48,307 nt of DNA from an uncultured Desulfuromonadales bacterium (GTDB lineage Bacteria > Desulfobacterota > Desulfuromonadia > Geobacterales > CAIOGM01). Shown here in pieces: positions 1,525-6,072 of this stretch. The position numbers were made by a program, and so were the translations under genes. A model generated the notes under the pieces. The model saw only the letters and a list, made by a program, of their open reading frames with translations. It had not been told where the DNA came from and searched no databases. The stretch covers positions 1 to 48,307 of the forward strand of contig CAIYUY010000047.1 in assembly GCA_903929485.1 (NCBI GenBank). The letters are read 5' to 3'. Positions within the stretch are counted from its first letter, which is position 1. Every line of letters starts with the position of its first letter.

Positions 1525-1553
1525 TTGACATTCAGGGTGATATGACCTAGTAT
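1525..1553 (+). promoter_or_regulatory. sigma-70 promoter of the leader RNA and cyclo-ligase operon
   Basis: -35 TTGACA (1525-1530), a 17-base spacer, -10 TAGTAT (1548-1553). This is close to consensus with ideal spacing, so a strong constitutive promoter is expected with a start near 1560. The first protein gene starts only at 1875, leaving about 315 bases of untranslated RNA. Confidence 0.8.
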
Positions 1554-1559
1554 GCAAAA

Positions 1560-1806
1560 AATTACGTATCAGGGGCGGCAGCGGCCGATAGACAAGCTCG
1601 GCGCTTTTTTCCATGATATTTTTTGATAGGTTTTACCAGGCGTGTGCGGTTTTGACCGCGAGAGGTGGAGGGCGCTTTCGCCCACCTGAAAGTTCCTGCT
1701 GGTTCAGCAGATTGATATATAAGGCCTTTAACAGGGTTCCGAGAGTTCTTCGCCCGCTTGAATCTTTTCGTGCGTTGCAAGTTCCCGCATATCGTCTGCC
1801 CGCCTT
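1560..1806 (+). ncRNA. ssrS: structured RNA candidate, possibly 6S RNA
   Basis: This non-coding stretch lies between a strong promoter and the 5-formyl-THF cyclo-ligase gene. That is the classic place of 6S RNA (ssrS-ygfA) in gammaproteobacteria. A long-range closing helix can be drawn: GGCGG with CCGCC and CAG with CTG (1574-1581 with 1797-1805, one bulged C), then CGATA 1586-1590 with TATCG 1790-1794. Inside are three local hairpins at 1646-1659, 1663-1687 and 1696-1710; the last has a perfect 6-bp stem CTGCTG/CAGCAG. 6S RNA sequesters the sigma-70 RNA polymerase holoenzyme. The structure and position are seen; the 6S identity is inferred and the RNA would be longer than the usual 180-200 bases. 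A plain long 5' UTR is the alternative. Confidence 0.42.
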
Positions 1807-1874
1807 GAACACTCTCTCCGTCTCAATTGCTTCAGTTCCCCTCCTTTTTTTCGTTCGCGGAATGAGTGGTCCGT

Positions 1875-2441
1875 ATGCCTAAAAAAAACCTTCGACGAGT
1901 CATGCTCCAGCGGCGTCGCGCGCTTACTCTTGACCGGTGGATGTTGCTGAGTCGCCTGGTTCAGCAGCGTTTTTTGGCGTCTGATCTTTTTGCACAGGCC
2001 CGACTCCTCGCACTTTATTCTCCGGTGAAACGTGAAGTGGATACCATGGAGGTCGTGTTTGCGGCGCTAGCCGCGGGGAAGAGGGTGATTTTTCCCGCAG
2101 TCGCGCAAGGTGGGCTTCTGTTTCGCGAGATCACGGGGACGCATGACCTGTCGTCAGGGGCATTCGGTATTCTCGAGCCGGCGCCAACATGCCCGTTACG
2201 CCTACCCGAAGAAGCTGACTGTATCGTCGTGCCGGGGGTTGCTTTTGACCGAAGAGGGCAGCGTATCGGTTATGGCAAGGGGTATTACGATCGGACACTG
2301 CATTCCCTGGAGGGGACGGGACGCTTGGTCGGTTTTTGTTTTGAGTTTCAACTGGTGGAAGAGATCGTCGTAGAACTTCACGACGTGGCGCTGGATCTGA
2401 TCATAACCGAACGGCAGACCATGCCGGTTCGGTCACTATAG
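1875..2441 (+). CDS. 5-formyltetrahydrofolate cyclo-ligase
   Basis: Converts 5-formyl-tetrahydrofolate to 5,10-methenyl-tetrahydrofolate using ATP, returning the storage folate to the one-carbon pool. The 188-residue protein has the family length and the diagnostic [11 protein letters not shown] nucleotide/folate-binding motif near the C-terminus, with a basic N-terminus ([17 protein letters not shown]) typical of the family. The ATG at 1875 is preferred over an in-frame GTG at 1866; no strong ribosome-binding site precedes either. It heads the co-directional run to rny, ymdB, tyrS, miaA and hfq and follows the putative 6S RNA, the ssrS-ygfA arrangement of other proteobacteria. Often called ygfA or fau. 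Confidence 0.93.
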
Positions 2442-2457: not shown

Positions 2458-4026
2458 GTGAAAGTTGATATTATGTTTGTCGTGATCCTCCTGGCGGTTG
2501 CCGGTGGGATCGGCTATTACGTCGGGAACCTGTTGAGAAAGAAGTATTCGGATTCGCTGATGGCGCGGACGGAGGAACTTGCCGGAAAAACCATGGAAGA
2601 TGCCAAGCGTCAGGCGGAAACCATTACCAAAGAGGCGACCCTGCACGCAAAGGACGTGGTCTACCAGGCCAAGGCCGACTTCGAGCGGGAATGCAAGGAG
2701 ATGCGGTCCGATCTCCAGACCCAGGAAAAACGTCTCCAGCAGAAGGACGAGCACCTGGACAACAAGATAAACCTCTTCGATCAGCGGGATGCGGAACTTG
2801 TGAAAAAAGAGCAGTCGCTGATCTCCCGTGATCAAGCGTTGGTGACGAAAGAGCAGAAGACCGGTGAACTGCATGAGCAGGCGCGGCTGAAACTGGAAGA
2901 GGTTTCCGGCATGACCGCCTCGGAGGCCAAGCAAATTCTCATGGACGGCATTATCGATGAGGCCAAGTTTGATGCCGCCAAGAAGATCCGGGTGATAGAA
3001 GAAGAGGCGCGGGAGACCGCGGACAAGAAATCCAAGGAGATTCTTGCCCTGGCCATTCAGCGGTATGCCGGCGAATACGTGGCAGAGCGGACTGTCTCCG
3101 TGGTGGCGCTCCCTTCAGACGAAATGAAAGGGCGAATCATTGGTCGGGAAGGGCGTAATATCCGGGCTCTGGAGGCCGCCACCGGGATCGACCTCATTAT
3201 TGATGACACCCCCGAGGCGGTGATCCTCTCCGGATTCAATCCGGTGCGGCGCGAGGTTGCCAAGCTCTCCCTGGAAAAACTTATCGCCGACGGCCGGATT
3301 CATCCCGGACGAATCGAGGAGGTTGTGGCCAAGGCCACCGAAGAGGTGGAGCAGGCCATCAAGGAGGCCGGAGAGCAAGCGGCTTTCGATCTGGGGGTTC
3401 ATGGCATCCACCCGGAGATTCTCAAACTCATTGGACGGCTTCGTTATCGAACCTCCTACAGCCAGAACGTTTATCAGCACTCGTTGGAAGTGGCCTTCAT
3501 CTGCGGGATCATGGCTGCCGAACTGGGAATTAACGTGAAACAGGCCAAGCGGGCCGGCCTGCTTCACGACCTGGGGAAAGCGGTGGACCACGAAGTTGAA
3601 GGGTCCCATGCCGTCATCGGCGCGGATATAGCCCGTAAGTACGGTGAATCGCCCAAGATTATTCATGCCATCATGGCTCACCACGAGGACGAGAAGCCGG
3701 CCACCGTGTTGGCTGTGCTGGTTCAGGCGGCGGATGCCCTCTCCGGAGCTCGTCCCGGGGCACGGCGCGAAATGATGGAGACCTATGTCAAGCGGTTGGA
3801 GGATTTGGAGCGAATTGCCACCTCCTTTGGCGGCGTCATGAACTCCTTCGCCATTCAGGCAGGGAGGGAGATCCGGGTCATGGTTTCCAGCGAAGATGTG
3901 AGCGACGAGCGGACCCTTATTCTGGCCAAGGATATTGCCAAGAAGATCGAGGCGGAAATGACCTATCCCGGTCAGATAAAGGTGCATGTCATTCGGGAAA
4001 CGCGGGCCGTAGACTATGCCCGTTAA
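2458..4026 (+). CDS. rny: ribonuclease Y
   Basis: Membrane-anchored endoribonuclease that starts mRNA decay. The 522-residue protein has the family order: an N-terminal membrane helix (about residues 6-22, [18 protein letters not shown]), a long charged coiled coil rich in K/E/Q (about 25-200), a KH RNA-binding domain (about 210-275, [19 protein letters not shown]), and an HD phosphohydrolase domain with the metal-binding His370-Asp371 pair ([12 protein letters not shown]). The GTG start at 2458 is chosen because AGGGGGTAGG lies directly upstream; the ATG five codons later has no such site. It overlaps ymdB by 11 bases, so the two are probably translationally coupled. Confidence 0.97.
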
Positions 4027-4804
4027 GGTTCTCTTTATAGGGGATCTGGTGGGGAAGCCGGGACGTCAGGCTGTTTCGCGGGAGCTCCATCGTCTGGTGG
4101 ACCGGCATGCCGTGGATCTGGTGGTCGTCAATGGTGAAAACATGGCCGGCGGCTTCGGCATCACCGAGGAGACCGCCCGGGAACTGTTCGATATGGGTGT
4201 CCATGCCATTACCAGCGGCAACCATATCTGGGACAAGCGGGAATCGTATCCCTATCTCAACCGGGAGGAGCGGATCATCCGCCCGGCAAATTACCCGTCG
4301 GGAGCTCCGGCACGAGGGAGTATCGTGGTGAAGACCTCGGGGGGGGTGAAGATCGGTCTCCTCAATCTGGAGGGAAGGGTTTTCATGAATAATTTGGAGT
4401 GTCCCTTTCTCACGGCGGACCGGGAGGTCGCCCGCCTCCGGGAGGAGACTCCGCTCATTCTCGTTGATTTTCATGCCGAGGCTACGTCGGAAAAGGCGTC
4501 CCTGGGGTGGTATCTGGATGGGCGGGTCAGCGCTGTCATCGGCACTCACACTCATGTTCAGACGGCGGACGAGCGGCTCCTCACGGGGGGGACCGCTTAC
4601 ATTACCGATGCGGGGATGACGGGGAGCTTTGACTCCGTGATAGGTGTCCGTAAGGACGAGCCGATTCAAAAATTCCTCACCCAGCTTCCCGTCAAGTTCG
4701 AGGTGGCCAAGAAGGATCTCAGGCTTAACGGAGTAGTCGTCACCATCGATAACGGAACAGGACGGGCACAGGCTATAGAGCGGGTCAATGTGGCGTGCGG
4801 GTGA
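4016..4804 (+). CDS. ymdB: YmdB-family metallophosphoesterase
   Basis: Calcineurin-like phosphoesterase of the TIGR00282 family. The Bacillus YmdB hydrolyses 2',3'-cyclic nucleotides and affects biofilm and motility decisions. The 262 residues show the metal-binding motifs in order: GDLVGKPGR near the N-terminus, [19 protein letters not shown], and [11 protein letters not shown]. There is no signal peptide, so it is cytoplasmic. It starts inside the end of rny, the same pairing as in Bacillus, which fits a role in handling products of RNA turnover; that role is inferred here. It is followed by a stable hairpin and then tyrS. Confidence 0.93.
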
Positions 4805-4863: not shown

Positions 4864-6072
4864 ATGACTGTCGCCGAGCAGATGGAAATTATCAAACGGG
4901 GAACCGTGGAAATCCTGGTGGAGAAGGAGCTCCTGGAAAAGCTGGAGAAATCACACAAGTGCGGGATTCCCCTGATTGTTAAGGCGGGCTTCGACCCCAC
5001 GGCGCCGGATCTTCATCTGGGGCATACGGTGTTGATCCAGAAACTGCGTCAGTTTCAGCAACTGGGGCACCATGTCCATTTTCTCATCGGCGACTTTACC
5101 GGCATGATCGGTGACCCAACCGGCAAGTCCGAGACCCGCAAGGCGTTGACTCGCGAGGATGTGCTCCGGAATGCCGAGACCTACAAGGAGCAGGTGTTCA
5201 AGATTCTTGACCCGGAGAAGACGAAGGTCGTCTTCAACTCCCAGTGGTTGCTCCCTCTCTCCGCCAGCGACATGATCGGACTCGCCTCCAAGTATACGGT
5301 GGCCCGGATGTTGGAACGGGAGGACTTCAGTAACCGTTTCGCCAACCAGCTCCCCATCAGTATTCATGAGTTCCTCTATCCTCTGATTCAGGGGTACGAC
5401 TCCGTGGCCTTGAAGGCCGATGTGGAACTGGGGGGGACAGATCAGAAATTCAACCTTCTGGTGGGGCGGGAACTCCAGCGGGAGTGGGGGCAGAGTCCTC
5501 AGTCGGTCATCACCATGCCGCTTCTGGAAGGGTTGGACGGCGTCAATAAGATGTCCAAGTCGCTGGGGAATTACATCGGCATTAACGAACTGCCGGAGCA
5601 GATCTTCGGCAAGATCATGTCGGTTTCCGACGACCTGATGCTCCGCTATTATGAACTCCTGAGCGACTTATCGCTGGACGGGCTGGCATCGTTGAAGAAC
5701 AGCTTGAAGCTGCATTCGATTCACCCCATGGACGCCAAGAAGCAATTGGGAAGGGAGATGGTGGCTCGTTTCCACGGCGCGGTCGCGGCAGAGGCAGCGG
5801 AAGAGGCCTTTGTCCGACGCTTCCGGGACAATCAGGCTCCCGATGAGATGCCCGATGTGATGGTGATCGCGGAGGGAGGAAAGATTCTTCTCAGCAGGCT
5901 CCTGGCCCAGGCAGGCTTGGTTGCTTCCAACAGTGAAGGGCGTCGGGCAATCCAGGGGAATGGTGTTAAGATCAATGGAGAAAAGATTTCCGACGACACC
6001 CTTGAGCTCACCGCCGGCACCTTTATCATCCAGTTCGGCAAGCGTCGTTTTGCCCGTATCGTCGTCACCTGA
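4864..6072 (+). CDS. tyrS: tyrosyl-tRNA synthetase
   Basis: Charges tRNA-Tyr with tyrosine; a class I cytoplasmic enzyme. The 402-residue product has the HIGH-type motif [11 protein letters not shown] (about residue 50), the tyrosine-site segment [37 protein letters not shown], the KMSKS motif exactly ([10 protein letters not shown]) and a C-terminal S4 RNA-binding domain (about residues 335-400). GAGGAGA precedes the ATG at 4864. Its place in the rny-ymdB-tyrS-miaA run suggests co-transcription with other RNA-related genes. Confidence 0.98.

Follow-up and report, generated by a model that had tools for sequence, protein, structure and literature searches.

The window, a 48,307-nt stretch of DNA from an uncultured Desulfuromonadales bacterium (contig CAIYUY010000047.1), opens with metK, which is encoded on the minus strand (167-1345) and divergent from a promoter-like site at 1525-1553. 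Downstream of this site on the plus strand lie fthC (ygfA), whose product, 5-formyltetrahydrofolate cyclo-ligase (5-FCL), matches Pfam PF01812 with an E-value of 3e-42, and rny (RNase Y), probably the second gene of an operon with fthC. Two further plus-strand ORFs follow, at 4016-4804 and 4864-6072; from reading of their translations, we take the first to be a phosphoesterase-like, ymdB-like gene and the second to be tyrS-like. We prefer ATG 1875 to the alternative GTG 1866 as the fthC start because it is conserved among relatives. At the contig edge, inverted ends GGGGGTATCC ... GGATACCCCC enclose ~125 nt between the first base and the 3′ end of metK (1-146), possibly a small mobile element. 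The features from the promoter-like site onward are as follows.

1525-1553, plus strand: putative sigma-70-type promoter, TTGACA-17-TAGTAT; the genus keeps the -35 box and a portion of the spacer (GATATGNCCTA)
1566-1619, plus strand: arm H0, GUAUCA.GGG...CCC.UGAUAU; a similar arm appears in four separate MFE folds despite differing sequence
1619-1630, plus strand: U-run adjoining the end of H0 and continued by GAUAGG; looks like a terminator, with five invariant U columns
1646-1659, plus strand: hairpin H1, GCGGU-UUUG-ACCGC, with a UNCG-type loop
1660-1671, plus strand: purine-rich block GAG(A/G)GGUGGAGG, nearly invariant; the 5′ arm of H2 plus AGG
1663-1687, plus strand: hairpin H2, AGGUGG...CCACCU, variable in its apical part
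1696-1710, plus strand: hairpin H3, CUGCUG-GUU-CAGCAG, the perfect hairpin
1711-1721, plus strand: AUUGAUAUAUA directly after H3, resembling the hairpin + UUGAUAUAUA of an RNA found across the order (described below)
1775-1852, plus strand: C-rich, G-poor, weakly structured stretch; candidate rut-like (Rho-loading) site
1875-2441, plus strand: fthC, with a conserved ATG at 1875
2458-4026, plus strand: rny

The promoter-like site consists of TTGACA (1525-1530), a 17-nt spacer and TAGTAT (1548-1553). It has 10 of 12 consensus matches, in keeping with the "near-consensus" promoter of the first-pass annotation, and is kept in each of the genus's four genomes. Its TTGACATTC is identical in the four aligned genomes, and the -10 box reads TAGTAT, TAATAT, TAGGAT and TATTAT in the four species. 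The spacer itself (1531-1547, GATATGNCCTA) is kept in 4/4 species, which is unusual for a spacer; it is possible that it forms a regulator site or belongs to a special promoter class.

The ~315 bases between the promoter-like site and fthC had been described as free of genes, and we agree that they hold no plausible one. The only longer plus-strand ORF there (1613-1882) was rejected as coding: Pfam gave no match, and in relatives its frame is broken where the distances between conserved blocks differ by 1 nt. Single-base differences in the spacers among the four species break any frame that would span the core, and no conserved ORF was found across it; a very short ORF could lie elsewhere.

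We then compared the four genomes of the genus (G000-G003), the only sequences that exist for the core, using as a baseline the fourfold sites of fthC, 35% of which are invariant across the four species (pairwise identity 0.51-0.65). Two blocks exceeded this baseline: 1644-1672, with 76% invariant positions (binomial P about 8e-6), and 1695-1721, with 81% (P about 1e-6). The sequence upstream of the core is poorly conserved (19% invariant). When 141 Geobacterales genomes were searched with a model of the core (R1), the four genomes of the genus were recovered at E below 1e-25, and among the other 137 only chance-level matches (E 0.13 or worse) were obtained, in three genomes.

The consensus folding energy of the core was -21.9, compared with -13.7 ± 2.6 in column shuffles (0/200 as low), and its structure conservation index of 0.84 was equalled by one of 200 shuffles. 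Single-sequence folding energy is not exceptional (z = 0.08 and 0.46 versus shuffles) and, with z near 0, is uninformative as evidence of structure. Three hairpins, one of them perfect, had been drawn, and these stand as H1, H2 and the perfect H3; the core that they form ends in AUUGAUAUAUA. The H1 loop is UUUG, UUCG, UUCG and UACG in the four species, each of UNCG type, and variation in its stem is one-sided, from G-C to G-U and from U-A to U-G only. The long-range closing helix that had been drawn with them was not supported: RNAalifold over the whole leader gave a weak 4-bp helix, three of whose four pairs are broken or absent in one sequence, and in four separate folds the 5′ end mostly closed on itself as the local arm H0. 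The H0 region had a mean MFE z of -3.35 relative to column shuffles, and a misregistered alignment of it yields no consensus structure. Because the H0 duplex was clearly better than shuffles in G002 only, we consider H0 supported but not proven. Its base is A/U-rich, which is weak for an intrinsic terminator. Within 1565-1630, UAUCA has two possible UGAUA partners, one on each side of the U-run (1614-1618 and 1624-1628), so that alternative structures are possible.

Strict and permissive scans of the window's RNA found no Rfam family match. The RNA is conserved, structured and non-coding, and the conservation and consensus-fold tests in the four genomes favor the new leader RNA that the first-pass annotation had offered as one of its two options.

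A different RNA lies before fthC in most other Geobacterales. When this order-wide RNA was searched for with model R3, which comprises its first hairpin and P2 helix, 114 of 141 Geobacterales genomes had a single copy each, and the 136 genomes searched from other orders of the class had none. The matches lay 141-284 nt upstream of fthC and on the same strand in 45 of the 45 comparable cases. The RNA is single-copy and occupies zapA-fthC intergenic regions (L147-L152, L202-L211 and others; G004-G140); in two relatives that we read, the gene order was ftsY, a ZapB-like ORF, a ZapA-like ORF, the intergenic RNA and fthC, with rny beyond (gene names read from translations). Its layout is a hairpin, GGUCUCUUCAGGGAGACUUGAUAUAUA, followed by a helix P2 (UCAGUUYC ... 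UUUNCUGAUA) that encloses a variable hairpin; what comes after P2 is family-specific. On MAFFT alignments, pairing in the order-wide helices was kept in 96.7% and 85.8% of cells; changes were mostly one-sided and covariation was not above that of shuffles, and compensatory changes in the inner part of P2 were seen by eye only. The zapA-fthC intergenic stretch of the relatives had no match in Rfam 15, and both RNAs are new relative to that release. About 80% of the Geobacterales genomes searched carry a single copy of the order-wide RNA, which we regard as a candidate RNA family. Neither RNA is described in the literature that we searched; an earlier listing is possible in subscription papers, preprints or supplements, for example those of PMC11109978, a study that included a Geobacter genome.

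We also asked how the two RNAs are related. Neither R3 nor R2, a model of the family f2 core, matched at the element in the window's genus, and the first-hairpin pattern (up to three mismatches) occurred in 17 of 277 genomes, one copy each, with none in this genus. Neither model shows that the window's RNA derives from the order-wide one, and what is left is the resemblance of a hairpin plus AUAUAUA: upstream of fthC, at 1696-1721, (U)UGAUAUAUA comes immediately after a hairpin, as in the order-wide RNA. The other shared feature is the C-rich, G-poor stretch before fthC. Homology of the two RNAs is possible, and the window's RNA could be either a remodelled descendant of the order-wide RNA or its replacement.

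The C-rich stretch of the window (1775-1852) has an excess of 19 C over G in 78 nt and lies in the spacer of about 150 nt between the core and fthC. A stretch of this kind precedes fthC in 29/29 relatives' loci measured, where it usually ranks in the top 0.01-3% of 78-nt windows of its locus for C over G, and its sequence as such is unconserved. The 3′ part of the leader is not more stable than shuffled columns, which fits a rut site because such a site requires a lack of structure. On its plus strand the window has 13 stretches with a C excess at this level, on its minus strand even more, and rut sites are not defined by a strict consensus. An anti-rut switch in which GGUGGAGG pairs with the C-rich stretch was considered and discarded, the pairing being no better than in shuffles.

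From the conserved structure and its surroundings we infer, with about an even chance of being right, that this RNA is the 5′ leader of the fthC-rny operon and that transcription is terminated before fthC, probably in a Rho-dependent manner. Several observations lead to this reading: the promoter and the core are conserved in four species and the core has a consensus fold beyond that of column shuffles; the H0 fold recurs despite sequence divergence; the leader has no coding frame or Pfam match and is followed by fthC and rny; the C-rich stretch is present in 29/29 loci; and the R3 RNA occupies the same place in relatives. For the involvement of Rho there is a precedent in E. coli, where Rho-dependent termination between ssrS and ygfA has been reported (Chae et al, 2011, as cited in PMC10670590). 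RNA polymerase would often stop before fthC, most likely through loading of Rho on the C-rich stretch, with H0 and its U-run perhaps acting as a second, earlier stop. The core RNA, or something bound to it, would set how much transcription passes into fthC and rny, and the stopped transcripts would remain as RNA of about 160-290 nt.

We think it somewhat unlikely that the RNA is free-standing and acts in trans as a small RNA from a promoter of its own, with fthC read by leakage or from an unrecognised promoter. Such an RNA would account for the dedicated promoter-like site, and proteins commonly bind RNAs laid out as a hairpin followed by an AU-rich single strand. The end of the core and the start of fthC are 144-180 nt apart, separated by a spacer that is unconserved, C-rich, G-poor and variable in length, which is not the arrangement of a riboswitch coupled to the ribosome site; because of this distance and spacer a free small RNA stays a serious rival. 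Against it, the position before fthC is kept in 4/4 species, other families too have their RNA, a different one, before fthC, and a simple scan for a second promoter near fthC yielded just a weak 9/12 site at 1589 and none of good quality.

It is more doubtful still that the locus is conserved as DNA, as operator sites bound by protein in a long promoter region. The perfect inverted repeat of H3 and the conserved promoter spacer GATATGNCCTA would suit such sites, whereas the UNCG-type loops, the G-U pairs and a consensus fold that exceeds column shuffles are signs of RNA, and the distance from the promoter to the conserved blocks downstream is about 90-170 nt.

The arrangement zapA-ssrS-fthC is a well-known neighbourhood in Proteobacteria, and it had made a divergent 6S RNA the leading idea for this locus. 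The downstream half of that neighbourhood holds, since fthC/ygfA follows as at ssrS of E. coli. The upstream half does not: metK lies there, divergently, in place of zapA, and a search for ZapA in the genus's four genomes gave no match. In nearby families, unlike in the window's genus, a ZapA-like gene is found before fthC. The Rfam 6S model (RF00013) gave no match to the window's RNA even at E = 10 with permissive filters, placing it below the gathering threshold of 46.4 bits, and the same genome carries a canonical 6S RNA on another contig (C316:14192-14374, 72.3 bits). This copy is flanked by what we presume, from translations, to be a TauE-like gene and by a minus-strand ORF, with a presumed recA ~2.5 kb further. 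Each of the other three species of the genus likewise has one strong 6S match, on a contig other than that of fthC. The closing stem of 6S, in which the 5′ and 3′ ends pair around a central bubble, was sought here, and only the weak 4-bp helix was obtained, with the 5′ end mostly folded locally as H0. In favor of a 6S reading, RF00013 matches number two to four in many genomes of the Geobacterales (for example four in G032 and three each in G004, G007, G021 and G036), but none of the extra matches whose coordinates were compared lies at fthC. A divergent 6S RNA binding RNA polymerase is therefore very improbable at this site.

Position alone is thus a poor ground for calling 6S. Because the neighbourhood is kept while the RNA differs, control of fthC (and here also of RNase Y) by an upstream RNA and termination may be what is selected; this suggests that selection may keep such control rather than 6S itself. 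A bolder reading, which we think unlikely, is that 6S moved away from fthC in Geobacterales and that a fast-evolving RNA with two forms, one order-wide and one in the window's genus, controls fthC and rny there or is processed by RNase Y as a feedback.

Systems in which a leader RNA controls termination are already known, and the window's RNA can be set beside four examples of RNAs near folate genes or in the same position. Like 6S RNA (ssrS, RF00013), it is a non-coding RNA before fthC/ygfA, and in E. coli a Rho-dependent terminator is reported between that RNA and fthC; it differs in having no sequence or covariance match to 6S, no long closing stem and no zapA, with the real 6S located elsewhere. 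With the tetrahydrofolate riboswitches of Rfam it shares the property of being a leader RNA of a folate gene, whereas the window's RNA has no Rfam match. The order-wide RNA resembles it in its place before fthC, in the hairpin + (U)UGAUAUAUA and in the C-rich stretch, and differs in the order of its elements and in the zapA-like gene upstream, where divergent metK is found here. The candidate motif uORFC-39-1 of Streptococcus is likewise a structured leader of fthC with three hairpins (PMC11109978); attenuation is suspected there, the third hairpin being terminator-like and a short ORF central, and the account of the motif in that source places it in Streptococcus only. The core described here differs from uORFC-39-1 in that no conserved ORF spans it, and the two share the plan of a three-hairpin RNA placed ahead of fthC.
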